A DNA stretch of 64,000 nt from Paenibacillus sabinae T27 (GTDB taxonomy: Bacteria > Bacillota > Bacilli > Paenibacillales > Paenibacillaceae). The DNA is taken from assembly GCF_000612505.1 (NCBI RefSeq), contig NZ_CP004078.1:1104001-1168000 (forward strand), in the 5' to 3' direction. The notes under the pieces were generated by a model. The model saw only the letters and a program-made list of their open reading frames with translations. It was not told the origin of the DNA and searched no databases. A program made the position numbers and the translations under genes. Of this stretch, positions 49,833 to 64,000 are shown in pieces (within the stretch, counting starts at the first letter, position 1; the number at the start of each line of letters is the position of its first letter).

Positions 49833-50480
49833 GTGACACACGCGGACTTGCAGCTTGCCGCCTACAAGCGCGAGCTGCGCCGAAGCGCCGTCTCCGTCCG
49901 TGACGGAATCCCTCCGGTACGGAGGGAGGAGTTATCCTCGCTTGTATGCCATCATGCATGGCAGTGGCTGGAGGAGACCGGTGCGGACTCGGTTATGGTG
50001 TACGTTCCCTTCCGTTCAGAGCTGGATACGCGCCCACTGATTGAGCGGTGCTGGAAGGCGGGCCGCAGGGTCGTTCTGCCCCGCGTCCATGCCAGTTCCG
50101 GGGAGATGACCCTGCACGCCGTAGAATCATGGAGCGAGCTTGAGCCGGGAACGTACGGCATTCCAGAGCCTGCGGAGAGCCTTTCTGCAGTTGAGAAGGG
50201 AAGCGAGCCGCCCGTCGTTTTCGTTCCGGGCCTGGCCTTTGATGCCAGGGGAGGCCGGCTTGGCTACGGCCGGGGCTACTACGACCGGCTGCGGGCCCGT
50301 CTGTACGGAGCCTCCGCATCAGGTGCGGAGTGGAAATCGGTGTGGGTCGGTCTCGCTTACGGCGCGCAGATCTTGAATGAGGTGCCCATGGAAGCCCATG
50401 ACGCTTTTATGGACATGCTGATTACCGAGAAAGGAATACTGCATTGCACTGCCGAAGGAAAGGGGATTGACGCAAGATGA
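49833..50480 (+). CDS. 5-formyltetrahydrofolate cyclo-ligase
   Basis: This ATP-dependent enzyme turns 5-formyl-THF into 5,10-methenyl-THF, returning stored folate to the one-carbon pool. The 215 residues include [16 protein letters not shown] at the N-terminus, [17 protein letters not shown], and the signature [20 protein letters not shown]. Start is GTG 49833, with AAGGAGG at nine bases. The stop overlaps the moaC start by four bases. In B. subtilis the orthologue lies elsewhere, so its place here is a lineage feature. Confidence 0.93.
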
Positions 50481-50953
50481 AGTTAACGCATTTCAACGGT
50501 CAGGGCAGAGCGCGCATGGTTGATGTCAGCGATAAGGAAGTGACCAAGCGCGAAGCTACTGCGAAGAGCAGGGTAACGATGGCGCCGGAAACGCTTGACG
50601 CCATCAAAGCCGGAGCCATAGGCAAAGGCGATGTGCTTGCCGTCGCCCAAGTCGCCGGCATTATGGCCGCCAAGAAAACGGCCGACTGGATACCGATGTG
50701 CCATCCGCTGCCTTTGACGGGCATCGATATCCGTTTCTCAGACAACACCAAAGATGAACTATATATAGAAGCGACTGTCAAGACCACCGGCAGAACGGGC
50801 GTTGAAATGGAAGCCCTGACAGCCGTCTCCGCCGCAGCGCTGACGGTATACGACATGTGCAAGGCGCTGCAGAAAGACATGGTCATCGGGCCGACGCTGC
50901 TTGCGTCCAAGACGGGCGGCAAGAACGGCGATTATGCACGGGAAGAAGTGTAG
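50477..50953 (+). CDS. moaC: Cyclic pyranopterin monophosphate synthase MoaC
   Basis: MoaC makes cyclic pyranopterin monophosphate from the MoaA product in molybdenum-cofactor synthesis. The 158 residues have [16 protein letters not shown], the active-site [20 protein letters not shown] and [23 protein letters not shown]. Length and motifs are standard. It overlaps the folate gene by ATGA and is followed after 41 bases by a MogA/MoaB gene. It complements the molybdate uptake genes at 10-13 kb. Confidence 0.96.
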
Positions 50954-50994
50954 TCCTATCAGTACATAATGAAAACAGAGAGGAAGGAGAACCT

Positions 50995-51480
50995 ATGGCG
51001 TGGAAGACAGCAATCCTGACGGCCAGCGACAAGGGGGCTCGGGGCGAGAGGGAGGATACGAGCGCTCAAGTGATCCGCGAGCTGGTGGAGGAGGAGCTTG
51101 GAGGGGAGATCGTAGAGTACCGGATTGTCCCCGACGAGCCGGATGAAATTATTGCGGCGCTCATCGAATTGACCGATTACTTTCAGGCCGATCTGGTTCT
51201 GACCACAGGCGGTACCGAGCTTGCCATCCGGGATGTGACGCCGGAAGCGACGCGCCGGGTGATCGAACGGGAAGTGCCGGGCATGTCTGAGGCGATGCGG
51301 AGTACGGTAATGCAGAAGAACCGCGCCGCCATGCTGTTCCGGGGGATCTGCGGCATCCGCGGCCGGACGCTGATCGTCAATCTGCCGGGCACTCCCAAGG
51401 GCGTGCATGAGCATTTGGCCGCCATTATGGATCAGCTGCCGGAGGCGCTGCTGATGGTAACCGGCCAATATCGGCAGTAG
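50995..51480 (+). CDS. moaB: MogA/MoaB-family molybdopterin adenylyltransferase
   Basis: The 161-residue protein belongs to the MoCF_biosynth family, which adenylylates molybdopterin before metal insertion. It shows AILTASDKGARGEREDTSAQVI, then LVLTTGGTELAIRDVTPEATRRVIEREVPGMSEAMR over the TTGGTG-like nucleotide-binding loop, and NLPGTPKGVHEHL. The frame extends upstream over moaC, but AAGGAG before ATG 50995 fixes the start. In B. subtilis the rex repressor gene stands between moaC and the tat genes; here this gene is in that place. Confidence 0.9.
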   Translation: MAWKTAILTASDKGARGEREDTSAQVIRELVEEELGGEIVEYRIVPDEPDEIIAALIELTDYFQADLVLTTGGTELAIRDVTPEATRRVIEREVPGMSEAMRSTVMQKNRAAMLFRGICGIRGRTLIVNLPGTPKGVHEHLAAIMDQLPEALLMVTGQYRQ

Positions 51481-51539
51481 GAACTGCGTTCATCGGGAGC
51501 TTGCGGCTCCAATTCTCCAAACAACTGCTTCCGTTTGGA

Positions 51540-51600
51540 TTTCGACATACATTACAGATGCAAGTGTGATTTAAGTTATGGTATGATATAGTTGTCGAAA
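51540..51600 (+). promoter_or_regulatory. tatA promoter region flanked by inverted repeat
   Basis: TGGTATGAT (51579-51587) is an extended -10. TTTCGACA (51540-51547) and TGTCGAAA (51593-51600) flank it as a perfect 8-bp inverted repeat 45 bases apart. The arms may be an operator pair; no regulator is suggested. Confidence 0.4.
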
Positions 51601-51640
51601 ACGGTGTCACGAACGGAACAGGGAACAAGGAGGAATGAAC

Positions 51641-51877
51641 ATGTTTAACGGTATTGGGGCTCCGGGCATCATACTGCTTGTCATTCTGGCGCTGCTGCTC
51701 TTTGGTCCTAACAAGCTGCCCGAACTGGGCCGCGCAGTCGGAAGGACCTTCCGTGAGTTCAAGGAAGGAACCCGCGATATAATGGCCGACTCCGAGCCGG
51801 CGGTCAAGAGCGAGCCGCCCGCGCCGGATCAGGCGCAGAATGCGCCCGCCTCCCTTGAGAAGCGTTTGCCGGAATAA
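51641..51877 (+). CDS. tatA: Twin-arginine translocase subunit TatA/TatE
   Basis: TatA forms the pore that moves folded proteins with a twin-arginine signal across the membrane. The 78 residues are one transmembrane helix (PGIILLVILALLLFG), the FGPNKLPELGRAVGR hinge, an amphipathic helix and an acidic Pro/Ala tail. ATG 51641 is eight bases after AAGGAGG, whereas 51635 would be too close. tatC follows after a hairpin, giving the minimal TatA-TatC system of Gram-positives, as in B. subtilis tatAy-tatCy. Confidence 0.93.
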   Translation: MFNGIGAPGIILLVILALLLFGPNKLPELGRAVGRTFREFKEGTRDIMADSEPAVKSEPPAPDQAQNAPASLEKRLPE

Positions 51878-51912
51878 GCAGGTCCGGAATTTTTATAGGT
51901 AGAACCAATGCG

Positions 51913-51960
51913 GAGGCGCCCTCTAAGTCCCCGGACTTTACGGGGTGCCTCTATTTTTTT
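51913..51960 (+). terminator. Hairpin with T-run between tatA and tatC
   Basis: GAGGCGCCC (51913-51921) pairs with GGGGTGCCTC (51942-51951), followed by seven T. As a terminator inside the tat unit it would lower tatC relative to tatA, matching the excess of TatA needed. Confidence 0.7.
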
Positions 51961-52004
51961 GAAATAAAATAAGGCTGGCGGCCGGAAGAAGAGGGGCTAA
52001 TCGC

Positions 52005-52769
52005 TTGGAACCCGGAAAAATGACGATTGTCGAGCATCTCACGGAGCTGCGCAGAAGAATCATAGCCGTGCTGGTCGTCTTTACCATCGGTCTGGCGGGC
52101 GGGCTGTTCTGCGCGAAGCCGGTCTATGAATATCTGATCCATGCCGACCTGGCTCAGGGCTTCGTGCTGCATGCTTTCGCCTTCTGGGACGGCATCGGCA
52201 TGTATATGAAGATTGCCATGGCCGTGTCGCTGATGGTATCCATCCCTTTCATCGTCTTTCAGCTTTGGGCCTTCGTCAGTCCCGCTCTGCGGCCGGAGGA
52301 ACGGAGCGCAGCCCTGCGGTATGTGCCGTATGCGCTAATTTTGTTTGTGGCCGGTCTTCTCTTCGCTTATTACATCGTGTTTCCGATGGCACTCTCCTTC
52401 ACCGTCTCGGTGACGCGCGATCTGGGACTGGAGGAGACGTACGGCATCGCGCAGTATTTCAATTTTATGTTCAGCCTGGTGCTGCCGATGGCGCTGCTGT
52501 TCGAGCTGCCGCTGATCGTCATGTTTCTCACCAAGATTCGGCTGCTGAACCCGCTCCGTCTGCGTAAAATGCGCCGCTATGCCTATTTTGCGCTGGTCTT
52601 TATCGCCGTCGTCATTACGCCGCCGGATTTCATCTCGGATTTTCTGGTCACTGTTCCTCTGATTGTTCTTTATGAATTCAGCGTATTTCTGTCCGCGGCT
52701 GTTTACCGCAAGCAGCTGATCGCCGACGCGGCGCTGGAGGCAAGATACGCCGCGGGAGACCATGCTTGA
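52005..52769 (+). CDS. tatC: Twin-arginine translocase subunit TatC
   Basis: TatC is the multi-spanning receptor for twin-arginine signals. The 254 residues have six transmembrane helices and the conserved N-terminal MTIVEHLTELRRRI, plus FVSPALRPEERSAALRYV in the first loop region, and FELPLIVMFL. Start is TTG 52005 with GAGGGG upstream. It lies in the same direction as groES, separated from it by a terminator and the heat-shock promoter. Confidence 0.95.
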   Translation: MEPGKMTIVEHLTELRRRIIAVLVVFTIGLAGGLFCAKPVYEYLIHADLAQGFVLHAFAFWDGIGMYMKIAMAVSLMVSIPFIVFQLWAFVSPALRPEERSAALRYVPYALILFVAGLLFAYYIVFPMALSFTVSVTRDLGLEETYGIAQYFNFMFSLVLPMALLFELPLIVMFLTKIRLLNPLRLRKMRRYAYFALVFIAVVITPPDFISDFLVTVPLIVLYEFSVFLSAAVYRKQLIADAALEARYAAGDHA

Positions 52770-52840
52770 ACGAAGGCTGGGCCCTACGGATTCCCGAAAG
52801 CGGCAGGCATATTTTGACGGGCTATGGATAGAATGAAAGA

Positions 52841-52875
52841 GAGTGCGGCTTGGACAACCTGCCGTATCTTTTTTT
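52841..52875 (+). terminator. Terminator of tatC
   Basis: GTGCGGC (52843-52849) pairs imperfectly with GCCGTAT (52861-52867), followed by CTTTTTTTT. It separates tat from the groE unit. Confidence 0.55.
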
Positions 52876-52908
52876 CCAAATTCGAGTAGAAAAAAAGAGC
52901 AAAAGGAC

Positions 52909-52937
52909 TTGAAATCCGCAGTCAAGTTGAGTAATAT
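52909..52937 (+). promoter_or_regulatory. Sigma-A promoter of groES-groEL
   Basis: TTGAAA (52909-52914) and TAATAT (52932-52937) are 17 bases apart. Transcription would start near 52944, a few bases before the CIRCE element. Confidence 0.75.
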
Positions 52938-52948
52938 AAAAATTGTTG

Positions 52949-52975
52949 TTAGCACTACTGACTGTCGAGTGCTAA
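52949..52975. promoter_or_regulatory. CIRCE element (HrcA operator)
   Basis: TTAGCACTA-N9-GAGTGCTAA matches the CIRCE consensus TTAGCACTC-N9-GAGTGCTAA with one change, in the last base of the left arm. HrcA binds it to repress groE at normal temperature. Confidence 0.95.
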
Positions 52976-53114
52976 CAGGCCCGAAAGATATGCCAGCCGG
53001 ACTGCCGACTCTCATATCTCATGAATGACCCGGAGCATGCTTTTTCCGGAGCATCATTCTTTCTAACCCTGTGTTCAAGCATAACAACATAATTTTCAAA
53101 GGAGGCTATTTTTC

Positions 53115-53396
53115 ATGATCAAACCTTTAGGTGAACGCGTATTGGTGGAACCGATCGAGCAGGAGGAAACGACTTCGTTCGGAATCGTGCTTCCGGACTC
53201 GGCGAAGGAGAAGCCGCAGGAAGGCAAAATCATTGCCGTAGGCAGCGGCGCTCTGAAAGACGGAGTTCGCGTACCGCTGGAAGTGAAGGAAGGCGACCGC
53301 GTCATTTTCTCGAAGTATGCCGGAACCGAGATCAAGTATGAAGGCAAAGAATATTTGATTATGAAAGAAAGCGACATTCACGCTATTCTGGGTTAA
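53115..53396 (+). CDS. groES: Co-chaperonin GroES
   Basis: GroES caps the GroEL chamber in ATP-driven protein folding. The 93 residues begin [28 protein letters not shown] and contain the mobile loop, then [36 protein letters not shown]. Length is standard. The gene is preceded by a sigma-A promoter and a CIRCE operator, and has a GGAGG ribosome site. groEL starts 64 bases later in the same transcript. Confidence 0.98.
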
Positions 53397-53445
53397 TTCC
53401 CGAAGGCGTTCATAAGACTTTAATACCGATACTTACAATTCATAG

Positions 53446-55089
<1,644 letters not shown>

Positions 55090-55161
55090 TAGGGCTCTAA
55101 GCCCTTATGCATCAAGGGTTTTTGTAACAGAAACACCGTTTGACACCATATGTATATTTTC

Positions 55162-55199
55162 GAGGCCTTCCAGGTTACCCTGGGAGGCCTCTTTATTTT
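55162..55199 (+). terminator. Terminator of groES-groEL
   Basis: 13-base arms (55162-55174 and 55179-55191) with a 4-base loop, one G-T pair, and a TTTATTTT tail. Confidence 0.92.
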
Positions 55200-55394
55200 G
55201 ATAATAAAATTGAACTATTCCGAGTGTTATGGTTTAATATAGATAAGCCACTCAATTAATCACATCTGTGATGAAGTTTGCATGTAAATTACATGTCATT
55301 TAATATAACGCGAATAGGGAATGTTTATAACAAAACACCTCATTATTTCGACTTTCTTCGAGTTTTTATATAAAAATGTGATTAAAAATAACAT

Positions 55395-55412
55395 AAAATT
55401 GTAGACAATTTT
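55395..55412. promoter_or_regulatory. GntR-type operator 1, overlapping the -35
   Basis: AAAATTGT-AG-ACAATTTT is an 18-bp inverted repeat with the core ATTGTnnACAAT. It overlaps the -35 TAGACA of the nine-gene operon. The same core recurs at 55522-55539. Confidence 0.7.
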
Positions 55413-55430
55413 GTTTTCCGTATGTATTAT
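55402..55430 (+). promoter_or_regulatory. Promoter of the gntR-metN-type operon
   Basis: TAGACA (55402-55407) and TATTAT (55425-55430) are 17 bases apart. Transcription should start near 55437, giving a 157-base leader that contains the second operator. Confidence 0.65.
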
Positions 55431-55521
55431 AAGGCTAACTTCTACGAGATGAGCAGACAGATGTAAGGTTTCAATTTTAGTCGCAAGCTGAAAGAAAGTG
55501 GACCGGGGGAAACTAATTATA

Positions 55522-55539
55522 ATAATTGTATACAATTAT
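55522..55539. promoter_or_regulatory. GntR-type operator 2, in the leader
   Basis: ATAATTGTATACAATTAT is an 18-bp perfect palindrome with core ATTGTATACAAT. It is centred 127 bp downstream of operator 1 and 63 bp before the regulator start. GntR FCD-group regulators recognise TNGTnnACNA-type cores, so both sites likely bind the product of the first gene. Confidence 0.7.
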
Positions 55540-55593
55540 ACAGTTATACTTTTAGAGCCGGAATTAGCTGATTTTTGACTAGGAGATGGATAT

Positions 55594-56274
55594 ATGAACA
55601 GTTCTGTTATGCGAACGCGCAGGTTATCCAAAGATAATACTTATTTTGCGTTAAAACAAAAAATTATCGATAGCGAGCTCAAGCCTGACGAAAATGTACA
55701 TGAAGAAAGTTTGGCCGCTTTGCTTGGTGTAAGCCGCACTCCTTTAAGAGAGGCTATTCAAAGGTTGGAGAATGAGGAGTTTCTCGTCCGGCAGCCGAAT
55801 GGAAGGCTTAGAGTAGCACCAGTAACCGTCGAAGAGGTTAAACAAATCTTTCTGATCCGCAGCATGCTGGAGGGTTATATCGCCAAGAGTGCCGCCAAAA
55901 ACGCCACGGATAAAGATATTCAAAATTTAACAGTCATGATTGAAAATATGAAGCAGTCCTTTCAGGCAGGACAGAGTCAGGATTTTGTTTCCTACGGCTT
56001 TGAATTCCATGATTATTTATCTGAAATGAGTGATCTTAAGACCTTTGTGAAAATCTTGAATCATCTGAGAGATCACGCGCTTCGCTATTGCCGGTTTGTT
56101 TCTCTTCATGGCGATTGGAACACACAGGCGGATGAAGAACATAGCTATATCTTGCAAATGATTGCTGACAGAAACGAAGACGGAGCTGAAAAAGCGATGC
56201 AAGATCATATATTAAGCAGTCTGTCCGCCGCATTGGAGAGAATACAAGGCATTCAAGCAAACAGAGAGGATTGA
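55594..56274 (+). CDS. GntR family regulator, FadR/FCD subgroup
   Basis: The 226-residue regulator has a winged helix at about 15-80 (ALKQKIIDSELKPDENVHEESLAALLGVSRTPLREAIQRLENE) and an all-helical FCD ligand domain (about 88-215, MLEGYIAKSAAKNATDKDIQNL, FEFHDYL, ILNHLRDHALRY, DEEHSYILQMI). FCD proteins often hold a metal and bind a carboxylate ligand. It is the first gene of the operon, eight bases before the PLP-enzyme gene, and two palindromes of the right type lie in its promoter region. The likely ligand is a substrate of the pathway, so autoregulation and induction by it are inferred. Confidence 0.9.
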   Translation: MNSSVMRTRRLSKDNTYFALKQKIIDSELKPDENVHEESLAALLGVSRTPLREAIQRLENEEFLVRQPNGRLRVAPVTVEEVKQIFLIRSMLEGYIAKSAAKNATDKDIQNLTVMIENMKQSFQAGQSQDFVSYGFEFHDYLSEMSDLKTFVKILNHLRDHALRYCRFVSLHGDWNTQADEEHSYILQMIADRNEDGAEKAMQDHILSSLSAALERIQGIQANRED

Positions 56275-56281
56275 GTTTGAT

Positions 56282-57496
56282 ATGAAGACAGAATGGAGTA
56301 TGGACACGAAGATTATTCATGAGAGCCAGTTTCCGGACCCGCAAACGGGCGCCATCTCTCAAACGCTCGTACCTGCAGTCGCTTATGCGTTCCCTGATGC
56401 GGAAACAGCGGCCGCAGTTGTTGCTGGAGAGGAAGAAGGCGTTTATTACGGCAGATACGGAAACCCTACATCCCGCACACTGGAGAAAAAGATAGCCGCA
56501 CTGGAAGGCGGGGAAGACGCTTTAGGCGTATCCAGCGGAATGGCGGCCATCTCCATTGCTCTTCTCGGCTTCTTGAAGCATGGCGATCATGTCCTGGTGA
56601 CCAAGGATGTATATGGAGGCACCTACAGCTTTCTGACTTCTCTGGCGCCAAGGTTCGGCATAGAATTTGATTTTGTCGATTGTACGGATATCGATTCAAT
56701 GATTAAGGCGATCAGGCCGAATACCAGAGCCGTCTACATCGAAACTCCCTCTAATCCCAGATTGACCATTCTGGATATCGGACAAATCTCGGAAGCCTGC
56801 AAAGCCTACCAGCTCCCCGTTATTGTCGATAACACCTTTATGAGTCCTTGCTTGCAGAAGCCTTTGGAGCTGGGGGCCGATGTTGTGGTACACAGCGCTA
56901 CTAAATATATTAATGGTCACGGGGATGTCCTGGCAGGATTTATTGTAGGAAAAAAAGACACCATCCAGTTCATGAGAAAGAAACTGATGGGCGATTTGGG
57001 GCAAAATTTAAATGCCTGGGACGCATTCCTGATCTTAAGGGGAATGAAGACCATGGCCTTGAGGGTAGAAAGACATTGCAGCAACGCCCAGAAAATTGCC
57101 GAGTACCTGGAGTCTCATCCTTTTATTGATAAAGTGTTTTATCCAGGCTTAAAGTCTCATCCTCAACACGAGCTGGCTAAAACGCAAATGAAGGGTATGG
57201 GTGGGATTGTTTCTTTCGAAGTAAAAGGCGGCTTAATTGAAGGAAAAAAATTAATAAACTCGCTGCAATTAGCGATGATTTCATTCAGCTTGGGAGATCC
57301 GGAAACCCTGGTTCAACATCCGGCTTCAATGACGCATGCATCCATTCCACAGGAGGAGCGAATGAAATTTGGGATTACGGATGGATTAATCCGCGTGTCG
57401 GTTGGGCTCGAGGATGCTGATGATATTATAGGCGATTTCGATCAAGCTCTGAGTGCCCTGTTTTCTGCTTCTGAAACCAAAATCATAACGAAATAA
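56282..57496 (+). CDS. PLP-dependent C-S lyase, Cys/Met metabolism family
   Basis: The 404-residue enzyme belongs to the cystathionine gamma-synthase/gamma-lyase/methionine gamma-lyase family. PLP is bound to Lys208 in SATKYINGHGD. Y57 and R59 of YGRYGNPT, Y111 in DVYGGTY and D183 complete the site. Methionine gamma-lyases usually carry a Cys where Gly113 lies here, so this protein looks more like cystathionine gamma- or beta-lyase than a dedicated methioninase, though substrate cannot be decided by eye. Start ATG 56282 overlaps nothing. The neighbours (amidohydrolase, Met transporter) suggest cleavage of an imported thioether amino acid to a thiol, ammonia and a keto acid. Confidence 0.87.
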   Translation: MKTEWSMDTKIIHESQFPDPQTGAISQTLVPAVAYAFPDAETAAAVVAGEEEGVYYGRYGNPTSRTLEKKIAALEGGEDALGVSSGMAAISIALLGFLKHGDHVLVTKDVYGGTYSFLTSLAPRFGIEFDFVDCTDIDSMIKAIRPNTRAVYIETPSNPRLTILDIGQISEACKAYQLPVIVDNTFMSPCLQKPLELGADVVVHSATKYINGHGDVLAGFIVGKKDTIQFMRKKLMGDLGQNLNAWDAFLILRGMKTMALRVERHCSNAQKIAEYLESHPFIDKVFYPGLKSHPQHELAKTQMKGMGGIVSFEVKGGLIEGKKLINSLQLAMISFSLGDPETLVQHPASMTHASIPQEERMKFGITDGLIRVSVGLEDADDIIGDFDQALSALFSASETKIITK

Positions 57497-57509
57497 AAGG
57501 GGGAAGTCC

Positions 57510-58679
57510 ATGTCTACTAAACAGCCGGATCAGATTGAACAAGCTTTAGGCAGTCAATTGATTGAAGTTCGCAGAAATCTTCACCGTGAGCCTGAATTAT
57601 CGTATGAAGAATTTAAAACGACAGAGAAACTGCGGAATTGGCTGACGGACGCCAATATTCGCATATTGAACCTCCCTTTAGAGACGGGACTCATCGCAGA
57701 AATCGGAAGCGGAGATGGGCCAATCGTAGCCATTCGCTGTGATATCGACGCACTCCCGATTGAAGAGCAGACCGGATTGCCCTTCGCGTCCGAGATTCCG
57801 GGGAAAATGCATGCATGCGGTCATGATTTTCATACAGCTGTCATTTTAGGGGCCGCATACTTGTTAAAAGCCCGTGAAGACGAGCTGCCCGGAAGGGTTA
57901 GAGTATTGTTTCAGCCGGCTGAGGAAACCGGTCATGGGGCTGAAAGCGTCTTGGCATCGGGAGGGCTTGAAGGTGTAGCTGCCATATTTGGTCTTCATAA
58001 CTCTCCAGAACTGCCCACAGGATCATTCGGAACGAGAACCGGAGCTTTAACCGCGGGTGTTGACCGGTTTGAAATTACGGTAAAAGGCATCGGGGCTCAC
58101 GCCGCAACTCCGGAGAATGGTGTGGATTCCATCGTAACGGCGGCTCAAATCATTACGGCGCTTCAGACGATTGTCAGCCGCCAGAACAGCGCAAGCGAGC
58201 CGGTTGTGCTGAGCGTTACCCGAATCCAGGGAGGGTATACCTGGAATGTGCTGCCGGAGATGGTTGAACTGGAAGGCACCGTTCGAACGCATAATGAAGA
58301 GATTCGCCGCATAATCCCGGTGAAAATGACGCAAATCATCGAAGGAATTGCTGCGGCAGCCGGGGCGGAGGCCAAGCTCCATTGGTATTCGGGGCCGCCG
58401 GCAACGATAAATGACGGATACTGGGCAGATTTTACCAAAGAGATCGCCGAACAGGCAGGGTATGAGGTACATGATATCCCGCCGCAAATGGGAGGTGAAG
58501 ACTTCTCCTTGTACTTGCAGAAGATCCCGGGCGCGTTTGTAAATATCGGAACCGGTCCCGCTTATGCGCTTCATCATCCGCGTTTTGATGTAGACGAGAC
58601 TGCATTATTGCCGGCTTCTGAGTATTTTGCTTTATTGGCGGAGCAAGCGCTCCTGAGGCTGAAGGAGGAAAGTTTATGA
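57510..58679 (+). CDS. M20-family amidohydrolase (N-acyl amino acid deacylase-like)
   Basis: The 389-residue metallopeptidase-fold enzyme has the HACGHD motif at 101-106, in which C103 replaces a metal ligand as in the IAA-amino acid hydrolase/YxeP group, and catalytic E138-E139 in FQPAEETGHGAESV. A dimerisation domain follows (about 180-290, GIGAHAATPENGVDSIV). Relatives remove acetyl or other acyl groups from amino acids; in B. subtilis such enzymes act on N-acetyl-S-alkylcysteines. The gene begins 14 bases after the C-S lyase gene, and its stop overlaps the metN start by four bases, so it is translationally tied to the transporter. Confidence 0.87.
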   Translation: MSTKQPDQIEQALGSQLIEVRRNLHREPELSYEEFKTTEKLRNWLTDANIRILNLPLETGLIAEIGSGDGPIVAIRCDIDALPIEEQTGLPFASEIPGKMHACGHDFHTAVILGAAYLLKAREDELPGRVRVLFQPAEETGHGAESVLASGGLEGVAAIFGLHNSPELPTGSFGTRTGALTAGVDRFEITVKGIGAHAATPENGVDSIVTAAQIITALQTIVSRQNSASEPVVLSVTRIQGGYTWNVLPEMVELEGTVRTHNEEIRRIIPVKMTQIIEGIAAAAGAEAKLHWYSGPPATINDGYWADFTKEIAEQAGYEVHDIPPQMGGEDFSLYLQKIPGAFVNIGTGPAYALHHPRFDVDETALLPASEYFALLAEQALLRLKEESL

Positions 58680-59719
58680 TTGAATTAAAGAATGTTTATA
58701 AGACGTACACCCGCAAAGGGATATCGATCGAAGCCTTGAAGGAAATCAATTTAAAGGTGGAAAAAGGCGATATTTTTGGGGTGATCGGCTATAGCGGCGC
58801 GGGAAAGAGCACATTGATTCGTTTGGTCAATTATTTGGAAAGACCGACGAAAGGCCAGGTTTTTGTGGACGGGCATGATTTAGGTAAATACAGCGTTAAA
58901 GAGCTGCGTGCCGCCAAAAAAAACATCGGCATGATCTTTCAGCATTTCAACCTGCTCGAATCGAAAAAGGTATATGATAACGTGGCCATTCCCCTCATTT
59001 TATTGAAAAAGAATAAAGACGAAATTCGCCAGCGGGTGCTGGAGCTGCTGGAGTTTGTTGGATTAGCCGACAAAGCGGGCAGCTATCCGAGCGAATTGTC
59101 AGGCGGACAGAAGCAGCGCGTCGGGATTGCCAGAGCGCTTGCCTCAAACCCCTCCATTCTCCTTTGCGATGAAGCGACATCAGCGCTCGACCCGCAGACG
59201 ACACGCTCCATTTTACAGCTTTTGAAGAAAATCAATGCGGAATACAACATCACGGTTATGATCATCACCCACGAAATGTCAGTCATTCAGGAGATTTGCA
59301 ACAAGGTGGCGGTCATGGAACAAGGACGGATTATCGAGCAGGGAAGCGTTCTGGAGGTATTCGGACATCCGCAGCATCCGACCACGCAAAATTTTGTGAA
59401 GACCGTCATTCAGAACAGCATCACAGACAGCGTGCAGAAATCCATAAAAAGGGAACCGGGCAGCGGCATTTACAAATTGGAATTTATCGGACAATGCGCT
59501 TCGGAGCCCATCCTGTATAAAATGATTCGTTCCTATGATGTGCAGGTCAATATTCTGTTTGCCAATATGACCGAGATTGAAGAAACGACACTTGGGAAAG
59601 TGATTGTTCAGTTAAAAGGGGAGACTGCCGAGGTGGATAAAGCCTTGTCTTTCATAAAAAGCAGTGGAGTCGGTGTAGAGGAGGTGGAAAAGCATGATGT
59701 CAACTACAGTTACAACTGA
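58676..59719 (+). CDS. metN: Methionine-type ABC importer ATP-binding protein with NIL domain
   Basis: MetN powers uptake of methionine and related compounds. The 347 residues show Walker A GYSGAGKST (38-46), ELSGGQKQRVGIARAL, ILLCDEATSALDP and THEM, with FGHPQHPTTQNF at the end of the ATPase domain. A C-terminal NIL domain (about 270-345) normally binds the substrate from inside and shuts the transporter. The gene overlaps the amidohydrolase gene by four bases and the permease gene by 26. The substrate may be methionine or an analogue, given the surrounding catabolic genes. Confidence 0.92.
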   Translation: MIELKNVYKTYTRKGISIEALKEINLKVEKGDIFGVIGYSGAGKSTLIRLVNYLERPTKGQVFVDGHDLGKYSVKELRAAKKNIGMIFQHFNLLESKKVYDNVAIPLILLKKNKDEIRQRVLELLEFVGLADKAGSYPSELSGGQKQRVGIARALASNPSILLCDEATSALDPQTTRSILQLLKKINAEYNITVMIITHEMSVIQEICNKVAVMEQGRIIEQGSVLEVFGHPQHPTTQNFVKTVIQNSITDSVQKSIKREPGSGIYKLEFIGQCASEPILYKMIRSYDVQVNILFANMTEIEETTLGKVIVQLKGETAEVDKALSFIKSSGVGVEEVEKHDVNYSYN

Positions 59720-60353
59720 TCAGTTTATGCAGGCGATTGTTGATACCATTTATATGGTGGGGATGTCCCTGTTTGTAGGGTCTTTAATTGGAATACCTAT
59801 CGGGATTTTACTTGTGATTACCCGTCCGGGCGGGATTTTGGAGAACAAAATCCTGTACACCATGATAAATCCGGTGATCAACATTGTCCGCTCCCTGCCT
59901 TTTATTATACTGCTCGTTGCCATTATTCCGTTTACCCGGTTGATTGTTCAGACTTCAATTGGGACAAGCGCAGCGATCGTACCCCTGATCATTTATATCG
60001 CGCCCTACATCGGACGCTTGGTAGAGAATTCTCTGCTTGAAGTCAATCCGGGAATTATGGAAGCGGCAGAGGCGATGGGGGCTACACCTTTTCAAGTCAT
60101 CTGGCATTTTTTACTACCCGAGGCTTTCGGATCGTTAATTCTGTCCCTGACGACGGCGACGATCGGCTTGATTGGCGCGACCGCGATGGCGGGAACGGTT
60201 GGCGGCGGCGGAGTCGGAGACTTGGCGATCGTATATGGATACCAGCGATTTGACACCGTTGTCGTAATTGCCACTGTTGTTGTCCTTATTATTTTCGTTC
60301 AAGGAATTCAGTCATTTGGCAACATTTTGGCGAGAAAGATTCGCCGTTACTAA
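59694..60353 (+). CDS. metI: Methionine-type ABC importer permease
   Basis: The 219-residue permease has five transmembrane helices. NIVRSLPFIILLVAIIPFTR and the docking loop NPGIMEAAEAMGATPFQVIWHFLLPEAFGSLI are characteristic of MetI, as is TVGGGGVGDLAIVYGYQRF. Start ATG 59694 lies five bases after GGAGGTGG. It overlaps the metN end by 26 bases. A 30-base gap leads to the URO-D-type gene that separates it from metQ. Confidence 0.93.
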   Translation: MMSTTVTTDQFMQAIVDTIYMVGMSLFVGSLIGIPIGILLVITRPGGILENKILYTMINPVINIVRSLPFIILLVAIIPFTRLIVQTSIGTSAAIVPLIIYIAPYIGRLVENSLLEVNPGIMEAAEAMGATPFQVIWHFLLPEAFGSLILSLTTATIGLIGATAMAGTVGGGGVGDLAIVYGYQRFDTVVVIATVVVLIIFVQGIQSFGNILARKIRRY

Positions 60354-60383
60354 AGAATAACTTTAAGGGGAGGAAAACGACAG

Positions 60384-61418
60384 GTGAGTGAATGGAGCAA
60401 ACAAGACCGGTTTAACGCCATTTTATCCGGTGAAAGAGCGGATCGCCCGATTGTCAGCGGCTGGCGTCATTTCATCGACAAGGAACAAAATGCGGATGAT
60501 TTGGCGGAAACAACGATTTCGTTTACCAAAAAATATGATTGGGATTGGGTCAAAATTAATCCGAGAGCTACTTATCTGGCTGAATCCTGGGGAAACAAGT
60601 ATGATTTTCAGGACTATCAAACCGTATTTCCGAGACAGGAAACGACCGCCGTTCCGGCAGCAGCCAATCTTTGGGATCTTGAGGTGAAGAAAGCCGCGGA
60701 ATCAGCCCCGTTATTGGAGCAATTGGACGCGGTGCGGAAGATTCGCCAAGGACTGCCGGATACCCCTCTGATTCAAACCGTTTTTTCGCCACTTACCGTA
60801 CTGCTCTTTATTGTAGGCCGGTCTGCTTATGTAACCAAAACGGTGTTTGGCATTGAGAATCCCGTTACCCTGGAATCGTTGTTTACCGAGCACCGGGCCG
60901 CGGCGCATCATGCGCTGCATGTGATTTCGTTAACCTTGGCCGATTATGTAACAGAGCTGAAGCAAGCGGGGTCGGACGGACTGTTCTATGCGGTGACGGG
61001 TACAGCTCATCCGGGCATGTTCGATGAAGCGAGGTTTAATGAGTTTTCCAGACCTTATGATTCGATTGTACTCGAGGCGGCGAGCTACGGGAAAAATGTT
61101 CTGCATACTTGCGGAACCTACTCCCAGCCTGAAAGGTTTAACGACTACCGGATCGACGGCATCAGCTGGGACACGAAGGCAGAAGGAAATCCGGACCTGG
61201 ATGCGGCTTTAACGGCTACCAAGGTAGGCGGCGTCGACCATGCTTTGTTTGCGGCAAATGACATTGCTCAAATTCAGCAGCAGGCCGAGGAAGCCTTGAA
61301 CAAGATGAGTGACCAGCCTTTTATTCTCGCTCCCAATTGCGCAATCCCGCTTAACGTAACCGATGAAGCATTAAAGCAGCTAAAAAAATCCGTTTTTGAA
61401 AAGGAGACAAGAGTATGA
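60384..61418 (+). CDS. URO-D-fold protein with thiol-methyltransferase zinc motif
   Basis: The 344-residue protein belongs to the uroporphyrinogen decarboxylase/MtaA-MtbA fold family. H241-x-C243 in NVLHTCG and C319 in APNCAIP, 75 residues apart, match the H-x-C-x(n)-C zinc motif of methylcobamide:thiol methyltransferases, which true uroporphyrinogen decarboxylases lack. The TIM-barrel blocks DGLFYAVTGTAHPGMF and GISWDTKAEG fit the fold. Start is GTG 60384, with GGGGAGG upstream; the stop overlaps metQ by four bases. It lies between metI and metQ in a thioether-utilisation-like operon, so zinc-dependent methyl transfer to or from a thiol is a reasonable hypothesis. No cobalamin-binding protein gene is nearby. 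Confidence 0.8.
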   Translation: MSEWSKQDRFNAILSGERADRPIVSGWRHFIDKEQNADDLAETTISFTKKYDWDWVKINPRATYLAESWGNKYDFQDYQTVFPRQETTAVPAAANLWDLEVKKAAESAPLLEQLDAVRKIRQGLPDTPLIQTVFSPLTVLLFIVGRSAYVTKTVFGIENPVTLESLFTEHRAAAHHALHVISLTLADYVTELKQAGSDGLFYAVTGTAHPGMFDEARFNEFSRPYDSIVLEAASYGKNVLHTCGTYSQPERFNDYRIDGISWDTKAEGNPDLDAALTATKVGGVDHALFAANDIAQIQQQAEEALNKMSDQPFILAPNCAIPLNVTDEALKQLKKSVFEKETRV

Positions 61419-62254
61419 AAAAGTTATTGCTCGTTCTTTTAGTTGGGGTTGTAGCATTGTTGTCGGCTTGCGGCTCGAATAAGGGCTCGAATTCAGGAGC
61501 TGCGCCGGAAGAAAAGAAAGAGATTACCGTTGGATTTGGCGTTGGTACCTATGAAGAACAATTCCGCCAGTCGATTCTGCCGATTCTGGAGAAAAAGGGC
61601 TACAAGGTTAACATCAAGACCTTCTCTCAAAACATGCAGGTAAACCCGGCCATGAAGGAAGGCTCCATTGACGCAAGCATCTTCCAAAGTACGGCGTACA
61701 TGGAAGCGATCAATAAAGAAATTGGCGCGGACATGGTTGGTATCGCCTATGTGCCGGGAGCGCCGCAAGGTCTGTACTCCGTCAAGCACACCACACTCGA
61801 TGATGTAAAAGACGGCACTACCGTTGCTGTCCCCAATGATCCGGTTAACCAGGAACGCGCTCTTCGCATTCTGGAGGAGCTTGGATGGGTTAAGATTAAA
61901 GAAGGAGCAGGTGTAGAGGACTTTAACATTAACAGCATGGAGCCGGACAAGTATAAAATTGATATTAAAATTCTGGACCCTGCGCAAATTCTGGTATCGC
62001 TCAAAGATGTCGATTATGGAGTCGTCAACGGAAACTACATTGCGAACGCCGGCCAAAAAATTACAGACGCATTGAAAATCGAAAATACGCCAATGCAGCA
62101 CAGAATCATCGTATCCATCAACAAGAAGGATGAAAATACCCAATGGGCCAAAGACCTGAAGGCCGCCTATGAGTCTCCGGAGTTTGAAGCGTATATCAAG
62201 GGGATAGAGAAATACGACGGGTTCATCCTGCCTGAAGCGTGGAAAAACAATTAA
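61415..62254 (+). CDS. metQ: Methionine-type substrate-binding lipoprotein
   Basis: The 279-residue NlpA/MetQ lipoprotein supplies the MetN-MetI importer. The signal MKKLLLVLLVGVVALLSAC ends in a lipobox with Cys19. The mature part opens ITVGFGVGTYEEQFRQSILPILEKKGYKV and has MQVNPAMKEGSIDASIFQSTAYME and VAVPNDPVNQERALRILEELGWVKI, typical of MetQ. It starts on the stop of the URO-D gene (ATGA overlap). Its separation from metNI by a catabolic gene is unusual and suggests tight co-production of uptake and metabolism. Confidence 0.92.
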   Translation: MKKLLLVLLVGVVALLSACGSNKGSNSGAAPEEKKEITVGFGVGTYEEQFRQSILPILEKKGYKVNIKTFSQNMQVNPAMKEGSIDASIFQSTAYMEAINKEIGADMVGIAYVPGAPQGLYSVKHTTLDDVKDGTTVAVPNDPVNQERALRILEELGWVKIKEGAGVEDFNINSMEPDKYKIDIKILDPAQILVSLKDVDYGVVNGNYIANAGQKITDALKIENTPMQHRIIVSINKKDENTQWAKDLKAAYESPEFEAYIKGIEKYDGFILPEAWKNN

Positions 62255-62271
62255 GCAAGGAAGTGGACGAG

Positions 62272-63078
62272 TTGATCGGAAAACAGATTCACTTTATCGG
62301 CGGCGGACAAATGGCTGAGGCCATTATCCGCGCCGTTATAAACAATCAAACCATATCTGCGGATCGAATGAGCGTAACGGATATCAATGAGGCGCGTCTT
62401 CAGTTCCTTAATAAGACTTACGGAGTGAACACGGACAGCTCTCAGGAGAAATATCTGGGCGAAGCAGACTTGATTGTGATTGCTGTCCGGCCGCAGGACA
62501 ATTTGGCTGCATTAGGACAAGCTGTACAGAAGTTCGCAACACCTACCACCGCAATCGTTTCGATTGTGGCGGGTGTAACGATGGAGAAGCTGGCCGGATT
62601 TTTTGGAGCCGAACGCCCCATTATCCGGGTTATTCCTAATACGTTGACCGATACGGGTTACGGCTATAGCGGGGTTGCCTTAAACGCCTACGCCAATAAG
62701 GATCAGGTAGACGGCTTCCTGCACGGATTCGGAAAAGTCCAATATTTGGACGAGGCGTTGATTGATATCTTTACCGGATATGGTGTTGCCGGACCGAATT
62801 ACATTTATTATTTCATTGAATCGCTTGCGGATGCTGGTGTGCTCGCCGGATTGCCGCGGGAACAAGCGTGGAACGTTGCGCTGGAAAATTGCGTTGGAGC
62901 TGTTGCCATGCTGAAGCACACCGGACTACATCCAAGACAACTGCTTGACATTAATAACTCCCCCGGCGGTGTAGGCATTCATGGCTTATATGAGCTGAAC
63001 AACAGCGATTTCGCGGCCGGCCTGCAAAGAAGCGTTTTGGCGGCTGTAAAGCGGACGACCGAGTTAGGGGAGAAATAA
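62272..63078 (+). CDS. Pyrroline-5-carboxylate reductase-like NAD(P)H oxidoreductase
   Basis: The 268-residue protein has the ProC fold: Rossmann motif IHFIGGGQMAEAIIRAVI (G10-G12), VIAVRPQDN, the helical dimer domain with GYGVAGPNYIYYFIESLADAGVLAGLPREQA, and SPGGVGIHGLYELNNSDFAAGLQRSVLAAVKR, where true ProC has SPGGTT. The substrate-loop change and the operon context suggest a cyclic imine or ketimine other than pyrroline-5-carboxylate. TTG 62272 is preferred since AAGGAAG lies eight bases ahead; the longer frame from GTG 62239 overlaps metQ and lacks a ribosome site. Confidence 0.8.
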   Translation: MIGKQIHFIGGGQMAEAIIRAVINNQTISADRMSVTDINEARLQFLNKTYGVNTDSSQEKYLGEADLIVIAVRPQDNLAALGQAVQKFATPTTAIVSIVAGVTMEKLAGFFGAERPIIRVIPNTLTDTGYGYSGVALNAYANKDQVDGFLHGFGKVQYLDEALIDIFTGYGVAGPNYIYYFIESLADAGVLAGLPREQAWNVALENCVGAVAMLKHTGLHPRQLLDINNSPGGVGIHGLYELNNSDFAAGLQRSVLAAVKRTTELGEK

Positions 63079-63080
63079 CA

Positions 63081-63845
63081 ATGGCATCGAAAAATTGGGA
63101 TCATCTTGTTCATTATGTCAATGATTTGGACCAGCCGGTTAAGCTCTTCCTGGATCATGGTTTGGTCGCCTTCAAGGGAGGATCGCATACGGAGTGGGGA
63201 ACCTATAACAGCTTAAGCTATTTCGGGTTAACCTACATCGAGTTTCTGGGTATTGAAAATCTTGAATTGGCGAAGTCGACGGAGCATAACCGTGTGGTGA
63301 AAGATGCGGTTGACACATTGCCAGAGCATGAAGCTTTGAGCAGAGTCGTTATTCGGACCGATGATATTGAAGAAATGGCCGCTTCTTTGGGAGCGGCAGG
63401 CTTAAAGCTTTCTCCCATAATGGATGGCAAGCGTCTGGATAACAAGGGCAGATTAATCGAGTGGCGGATGATGACCATCGACGGCGATTTTGAAGGACTG
63501 GTCTATCCGTTTATCATTCAATGGAAGGGGACGGACGCGGAGAGATTGGAGCGCTTAACGGCATCCGGCATTATTCAGCCTCATCCCGCCGGTCATGCCG
63601 AAATGAAAAGAGCGGTATTTCATGTCTCCGATCCGGCAGCCGCCGCCGAGCATTGGGGAAGATTGTTTGACCTGACCGCCTTGGAGTCAGATGATAAATC
63701 CGTCAGCCTTAAGATTGGCAATCAATTTTTTGACTTCGTAAAAGGGGACGAGAATCAGTTCAAACAAGTGATTTTTGAAACGGATTCTGTAAAGCTGAAA
63801 GGGGAAACCCTTCGGATTGGTGAAGGAGAATATGTCTTCGCTTAA
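63081..63845 (+). CDS. VOC/glyoxalase-like domain protein
   Basis: The 254-residue protein resembles the Glyoxalase_3 group of the vicinal-oxygen-chelate superfamily. NWDHLVHYVNDLDQPVKLFLDHGLVAFKGGSH gives the first beta-alpha-beta module with His7, and TYNSLSYFGLTYIEFLGIEN follows. The second module includes RAVFHVSDPAAAAEHWGRLFDL. Metal ligands are plausible at H7 and E66, but not certain. Members of the superfamily isomerise, epimerise or cleave oxygenated substrates. It begins three bases after the reductase gene and is the last gene of the operon, followed by a terminator. Confidence 0.75.
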   Translation: MASKNWDHLVHYVNDLDQPVKLFLDHGLVAFKGGSHTEWGTYNSLSYFGLTYIEFLGIENLELAKSTEHNRVVKDAVDTLPEHEALSRVVIRTDDIEEMAASLGAAGLKLSPIMDGKRLDNKGRLIEWRMMTIDGDFEGLVYPFIIQWKGTDAERLERLTASGIIQPHPAGHAEMKRAVFHVSDPAAAAEHWGRLFDLTALESDDKSVSLKIGNQFFDFVKGDENQFKQVIFETDSVKLKGETLRIGEGEYVFA

Positions 63846-63857
63846 TATTTGATTATT

Positions 63858-63902
63858 AGAGGCTTTCCATAAGGTCAATGAACCTTTGGGAAGCCTCTTT
63901 CT
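63858..63902 (+). terminator. Terminator of the nine-gene operon
   Basis: AGAGGCTT with AAGCCTCT (63858-63865, 63891-63898) and inner AAGGT/ACCTT pair, followed by TTCTTTTT. It ends the operon starting at 55594. Confidence 0.88.
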
Positions 63903-64000
63903 TTTTAATTTTTTAGGAATAAAAATCTATTTACTACCATAATTCGACAAAATTTCTGTTCTGTTGATGGTAGAATGAGTTTGCGGTTAAGAAATGGATT
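63903..64000. other. AT-rich intergenic end of window
   Basis: No gene is visible. TTCTGTTCTGTTGATGG and nearby TAGAAT at 63971-63976 may belong to a promoter of a gene beyond the edge. Confidence 0.4.

Follow-up and report, generated by a model that had tools for sequence, protein, structure and literature searches.

Several described systems for methyl transfer, sulfur scavenging or methionine import resemble the nine-gene operon of Paenibacillus sabinae T27 considered here. The type 1 mlp clusters (Kountz and Balskus 2023, PMC10418091), together with MtaA, MtbA and MtsA, share with it a URO-D fold, a His-Cys-Cys motif and sulfur-metabolism neighbours, which in the type 1 clusters include methionine transporters (PMC10418091). 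These clusters carry at least two Mlps and are reported only from obligate anaerobes, the URO-D methyltransferases described with them work with corrinoid partners, and ClMlp2 accepts free methylcobalamin in vitro (PMC10418091). In contrast, the operon encodes a single URO-D protein, lacks a corrinoid protein or activase among its nine genes, adds a reductase resembling pyrroline-5-carboxylate (P5C) reductase (P5CR) and a VOC protein, and belongs to Bacillales rather than solely to obligate anaerobes. The Bacillales hosts are mostly aerobic or facultative.

The core methionine synthases MesA-D, as excerpted from PMC7857596, share the theme of zinc-thiolate methyltransferases without a folate domain, and MesD is aerobic and corrinoid-free. 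They are Meth_synt_2 proteins, however, whereas the operon enzyme belongs to the URO-D Pfam family, and MesX is not named among the nine genes. The scm/yxe operon of Bacillus subtilis for S-(2-succino)cysteine breakdown (excerpts of PMC9706529 and PMC12757645) likewise couples an ABC importer to an M20 deacylase for an S-substituted cysteine, and YxeP is the best PDB match of the operon M20; in place of a named acetyltransferase, YxeK monooxygenase and 2SL lyase, the operon has the URO-D, P5CR-like and VOC proteins. The MetNIQ methionine importer shares an ATPase with a NIL domain, a MetI permease and an NlpA lipoprotein, but the operon MetQ has three of the seven methionine contacts replaced and the hidden Markov model scores fall under the NCBI cut-offs.

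The operon lies in the 64,000-nucleotide stretch analysed (the window), positions 1104001-1168000 of the single 5.27 Mb contig of the host genome. Its description was not found in the open-access literature (open-licence PMC papers only), in keeping with the initial annotation, to which it had looked undescribed. Between 55594 and 63845 nine open reading frames (ORFs) follow one another on the plus strand with intergenic gaps of -26 to +30 bp, a spacing from which a single transcript is inferred. The overlapping or close arrangement, the family of every gene (by Pfam) and the closing terminator are as first annotated. The gene order is mostly so, except that the URO-D gene sits between MetI and MetQ. 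The features, with Pfam domains and basis in brackets, are as follows.

55399-55408, no strand: second operator-like site TTGTAGACAA, overlapping the -35-like hexamer (motif match)
55402-55430, plus: sigma-70-like promoter TAGACA-17-TATTAT (consensus match only)
55526-55535, no strand: main putative GntR operator TTGTATACAA, extended TGTATACAATTATAC (conserved motif)
55594-56274, plus: GntR/FCD regulator (GntR, FCD; Pfam)
56282-57496, plus: pyridoxal phosphate (PLP) enzyme of Cys/Met metabolism, like methionine gamma-lyase (MGL), Cys115 replaced by Gly, accessory (Cys_Met_Meta_PP; Pfam, NCBIfam, alignment)
57510-58679, plus: M20 amidohydrolase, closest solved relative YxeP (1ysj), accessory (Peptidase_M20, M20_dimer; Pfam, NCBIfam, PDB match)
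58676-59719, plus: MetN-type ATPase with NIL domain (ABC_tran, NIL; Pfam, NCBIfam)
59694-60353, plus: MetI-type permease (BPD_transp_1; Pfam, NCBIfam)
60384-61418, plus: URO-D-fold protein with H241-x-C243...C319 motif and KxNPRATY signature (URO-D; Pfam, NCBIfam, alignment, fold)
61415-62254, plus: MetQ/NlpA-type binding lipoprotein, remodelled ligand site FQSTAY (Lipoprotein_9, i.e. NlpA/MetQ; Pfam, alignment)
62239-63078, plus: P5CR-fold reductase, SPGGVG replacing SPGG(S/T)T (P5CR_dimer, F420_oxidored; Pfam, NCBIfam, alignment)
63081-63845, plus: two-domain VOC protein (Glyoxalase_3; Pfam)
63858-63898, plus: intrinsic terminator hairpin (-24.9 kcal/mol, z -4.9), then a T-rich tail

A conserved unit with a six-gene core

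Searching with an alignment of 31 URO-D proteins gave 91 loci that encode a relative, of which the best 80 were kept (numbered here with the prefix L) and 79 scored. URO-D, MetQ, P5CR-like and VOC genes occur together in 49 of these 79 (core loci), all in Bacillota: Paenibacillus, Fontibacillus, Bacillus, Neobacillus, Robertmurraya, Gracilibacillus, Amphibacillus, Enterococcus lemanii and others. MetN and MetI are present in 46 core loci, divergently placed in L050, L051 and L067; 32 of the core loci carry GntR, 27 carry M20 and 11 carry the MGL-like gene. The nine-gene block is thus a conserved unit, seen also outside this strain, and its six-gene core (MetN, MetI, URO-D, MetQ, P5CR-like, VOC) recurs in many Bacillales. 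Of the nine families, whose co-occurrence had been proposed as a check, three are accessory (GntR, M20 and the PLP enzyme), and the URO-D, P5CR-like and VOC proteins are the constant enzymes. A central place for the C-S lyase and the M20 deacylase, as in the initial model, is therefore not supported.

Close URO-D, P5CR-like and VOC genes are confined to the same 25 of 245 Paenibacillaceae genomes (E <1e-150, <1e-80 and <1e-90, respectively, cut-offs chosen after the lists had been seen), and in all 25 the URO-D to VOC distance is 1657-1952 bp. Because the block recurs in other genera and these three diagnostic genes co-occur, the association goes beyond chance. Two observations weigh against a strict unit: six further Paenibacillaceae genomes carry a 41-46% URO-D relative for which the thresholds applied gave no partners, and in three a weaker VOC match comes with no URO-D match. 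Separately, a 49% VOC relative in a Paenibacillaceae genome (L119:7040-7873) has no labelled URO-D or P5CR neighbours, and Paenibacillus ihuae GD6 holds two operon subtypes about 108 kb apart (L030, L033), of which just one includes the MGL-like gene.

The host itself has a further, divergent M20 (68% to the operon M20) at L122:447-3059, about 1206.4-1209.1 kb of the contig and some 38-41 kb past the window end. The same region contains a URO-D-like stretch of 17-19 residues (tblastn E 1e-4 to 2e-3 over 6.5 kb), as well as a MetQ of the operon type, 80% to that of P. phytohabitans (L053); P5CR and VOC matches were not found there. It is probably a decayed second copy of the system, and this copy and the patchy distribution together point to gain and loss of the operon. 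The A+T excess first described is real (48.0% G+C against 55.2% in window positions 1-55000), but the acquisition read from it is not borne out, the operon being richer in A+T than its flanks in only 4 of 15 loci checked among the 80. No Rfam family reached its gathering score in 50000-64000. Beyond the terminator, the sequence just outside the window on the downstream side (L121:3024-5670) carries an AgrB-like gene and small LytTR-like genes, all identified by eye.

Operator-like sites, importer and reductase

Of 34 loci with GntR, 29 carry the site TTGTATACAA between -130 and +60 relative to the start of the GntR ORF; there are five copies in other places, including one 384 bp ahead of GntR in L026. 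A longer form, TGTA[TC]ACAAnTATAC, lies at -450 to +60 of the GntR start in 32 of the 34 (L039 and L040, which lack it, have the short site) and has no other copy on either strand in the 1.46 Mb that the 80 loci make up. In the 11 leaders aligned, of the 35 with GntR (window included), the block TAATTGTATACAA does not vary. The second site, TTGTAGACAA, recurs in L021 (with one change) and L023, both close relatives, and a Sporosarcina locus (L075) has site copies ahead of both GntR and the MGL-like gene. Presumably, GntR binds the operator-like site TTGTATACAATTATAC.

In NmMetQ, as excerpted from PMC6739813, methionine is held through its alpha groups by R156, N213 and N238 and through its thioether by Y81, F98, H100 and Y103, and loss of N238 alone weakens L-methionine binding more than 100,000-fold. 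The operon MetQ keeps the equivalents of R156, N213, F98 and Y103, i.e. four of seven contacts and two of the three to the alpha groups. Y81 is replaced by Asn, H100 by Ser and N238 by Ile; an Arg adjoins the Ile, so that the exact column of this last replacement depends on the alignment. FQSTAY is found in 52 of 54 aligned MetQs and FQHKPY in the other two; extra MetQs of 31-32% occur in L042 and L043. Five other MetQ-type proteins were found in the host. The four that were aligned keep the His and Asn, two of them without the Tyr, and the fifth is the operon-type protein of L122. NCBIfam scores are below cut-off for MetN (397.4 against 499.7 bits), MetI (208.4 against 212, just under) and MetQ (96.8 against 228.85). 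The original proposal that this importer takes up methionine or a free thioether amino acid is unsupported because of the three lost MetQ contacts.

The P5CR-like protein exceeds the TIGR00112 cut-off (203.3 against 196.75 bits). Its consensus (n=49) nevertheless reads GVAGPNY and SPGGVG against SGSGPAY and SPGGST in the host ProC, a housekeeping copy encoded elsewhere in the genome beside a frame read as ProA. We take Ser233 and Thr238 of human PYCR1 to fall on the SPGG(S/T)T motif. The Ser of SPGG is kept; where the Thr would stand, at least 95% of the 49 aligned proteins have Gly. Both other host P5CR-type proteins keep the Thr. PYCR1 holds a substrate analogue through Ser233 and Thr238 (excerpts of PMC7560826).

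Among NCBIfam models the PLP enzyme comes closest to MGL, at 479.7 bits against a TIGR01328 cut-off of 549.7. The Cys115 of the Cys115/Tyr113/Arg60 triad of Citrobacter freundii MGL (excerpts of PMC4717258) is missing from 13 of 13 close MGL-like proteins, being Gly in all 12 operon copies and Asn in L075. The M20 enzyme passes the TIGR01891 amidohydrolase cut-off (379 against 153.75 bits) and has 1ysj (YxeP, 421.6 bits) as its best PDB match, in a library that is not known to include YhaA, YtnL or YkuR. ScmP/YxeP, in the excerpted part of PMC12757645, deacetylates N-acetylcysteine but not N-acetyl-S-(2-succino)cysteine and has minor activity on N-acetylmethionine. The sulfur theme of the initial annotation is supported. 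Among the 120 of 354 public matches listed for the P5CR-like protein, those with a protein name say pyrroline-5-carboxylate reductase. Judging from the altered residues, this name is misleading, as are the database names of MetQ and of the 'methionine gamma-lyase'.

The URO-D-fold protein and a proposed pathway

The predicted fold of the URO-D protein resembles MtaA and HemE, MtaA being the closest. The set H241-x-C243...C319 is invariant in the aligned operon proteins, in agreement with the thiol-methyltransferase motif initially assigned. Scores against the NCBIfam coenzyme M methyltransferase models are low (55.4 against 244 bits for NF004889, 37.1 against 400 for MtaA). The only other PF01208 match in the host genome is HemE-like. 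It lacks His-x-Cys in its sequence, and BLASTP links it to the operon protein weakly at best (E 0.026 over 87 columns). A Pfam scan found no corrinoid protein among the nine genes. A search of the host genome for B12-binding domains returned three, assigned by eye to MetH and two radical-SAM-type proteins and none read as a shuttle, with Ram not searched genome-wide. The host has, besides the MetH-like protein, a 780-residue frame with Meth_synt_2. A metal, putatively zinc, would be expected at the His-Cys-Cys site, and methyl transfer, its direction and the absence of corrinoid are likewise inferred.

The reading that we favour, tentatively and at a little less than an even chance, is a GntR-controlled operon for uptake and breakdown of one small compound, in which the URO-D protein transfers a methyl group without a dedicated corrinoid shuttle. 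Its support comprises conservation as a unit, the motifs and predicted folds, the replaced methionine and P5C contacts and the conserved operator-like site. MetN, MetI and the remodelled MetQ would import a carboxylate-bearing molecule with a substituted alpha-nitrogen; the best guess is an N-acyl S-methyl thio-amino acid, a methyl-onium compound being the alternative. The URO-D enzyme would bind the sulfur on its metal site and move the S-methyl between thiols or thioethers. The freed N-acyl thiol could then be deacylated by the YxeP-like M20 and possibly cleaved by the MGL-like enzyme, in hosts that have them, while the P5CR-fold enzyme would reduce (or oxidise) an imine other than P5C and the VOC enzyme would convert the carbon product. 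The altered MetQ alpha contacts, a thiol-type enzyme and the specificity of ScmP/YxeP, whose relative is present in many hosts, together fit removal of the S-substituent before deacylation, for which the URO-D protein, moving a methyl group, is the candidate. The order initially drawn, from deacylation through C-S cleavage to methyl transfer, is not supported as it stands: core loci without M20 or MGL-like genes hint that URO-D acts first, though they are no proof of it. Substrate and step order are thus provisional.

Distant URO-D relatives adjoin five other importer types: PAAT-like (L052, L068, by eye), branched-chain-type (L078, scanned; L071, L079, L080 and further Chloroflexota loci through shared gene clusters), Pot-like (L076, L082, L116, the last by eye), ECF (L086, scanned; L089 through shared clusters) and dipeptide-like (L115, L117, L118, by eye). 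In the Lactobacillales loci L086 and L089 the relative lies directly behind the ECF module, whose S component could name the substrate. Nearby amide hydrolases include M20 (L075, L080, L116), M18 (L082), M24 (L086), HyuA (L082) and HyuA/HyuB (L116, by eye); C-S lyase relatives are MGL-like (L075, L076, L080, L087) or PatB-like, under cut-off (L078). Most distant loci nevertheless do not show such enzymes, M20 or MGL-like neighbours having been scored in 3 of 27 loci without operon partners, and Chloroflexota L097-L100 share other neighbours, e.g. FAD synthetase and tRNA synthetase in L097. In the tree, whose deep support is uneven and in which long branches meet, the MetNIQ-type URO-D proteins cluster almost as a single group, and the two PAAT-like loci fall within it or at its base. 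A wider proposition, which we consider doubtful, is that the URO-D superfamily includes a branch free of corrinoid proteins (KxNPRATY-like signature and His-x-Cys...Cys; found here in Bacillales, Lactobacillales, Actinomycetota and Chloroflexota) that acts as a general metal-thiolate demethylase served by at least six importer types, which in Bacillales founds a new six-gene pathway with a non-P5C imine reductase and the two-domain VOC protein.

Competing explanations and significance

The alternative that survives best, though unlikely, is import of a methyl-onium donor, a betaine or sulfonium (e.g. a proline-betaine-like compound or a sulfonium acid), whose methyl group would pass to homocysteine bound to the URO-D metal, the P5CR-like and VOC proteins processing the demethylated skeleton. 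BHMT methylates homocysteine from betaine using another fold. Loss of the Thr through which PYCR1 touches its P5C analogue would suit such a skeleton, as would the Meth_synt_2 gene, which we take to be YxjG/YxjH-like, between an MGL-family gene and MetN in L061 (copy scanned), L064, L065, L066 and L069 and nearby in L063. Against this, the M20 gene of 27 of the 49 core loci indicates an amide rather than a betaine, and the URO-D methyltransferases of PMC10418091 use corrinoid partners.

It is quite unlikely that no methyl group is moved and that the URO-D protein is some other metal-thiol enzyme, e.g. a decarboxylase or C-S lyase, as its His-x-Cys...Cys set is invariant, whereas host HemE, to which BLASTP similarity is weak, has no His-x-Cys. 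Similarly unlikely is corrinoid dependence through free methylcobalamin, MetH or a carrier missed by the domain search. MtaA as the closest fold, the MetH-like protein and the use of free methylcobalamin by ClMlp2 would favour it. It is opposed by the nine genes and the three B12-binding domains, which yielded no shuttle (without a scan of unlabelled neighbours at other loci for corrinoid proteins or Ram), and by the restriction of known type 1 clusters to obligate anaerobes (PMC10418091). Ordinary methionine uptake and degradation by MetNIQ and MGL with unrelated passengers, suggested by the family names, the closest model of the PLP enzyme and the near-threshold MetI score, is highly improbable given the lost MetQ contacts, four models under cut-off, the scarcity of the MGL-like gene (11 of the 49 core loci), the missing Cys115 and 'passengers' that are the most constant genes.

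If the favoured reading of methyl transfer without a dedicated shuttle is true, ordinary Bacillales would perform methanogen-like methyl-sulfur (or methyl-onium) chemistry without a corrinoid shuttle, and the question of the methyl carrier would become directly testable. The test set is compact, comprising a single operon with one operator-like site, its binding protein and a handful of enzymes, and routine annotations in many records (methionine-binding MetQ, P5C reductase, methionine gamma-lyase) would be corrected.

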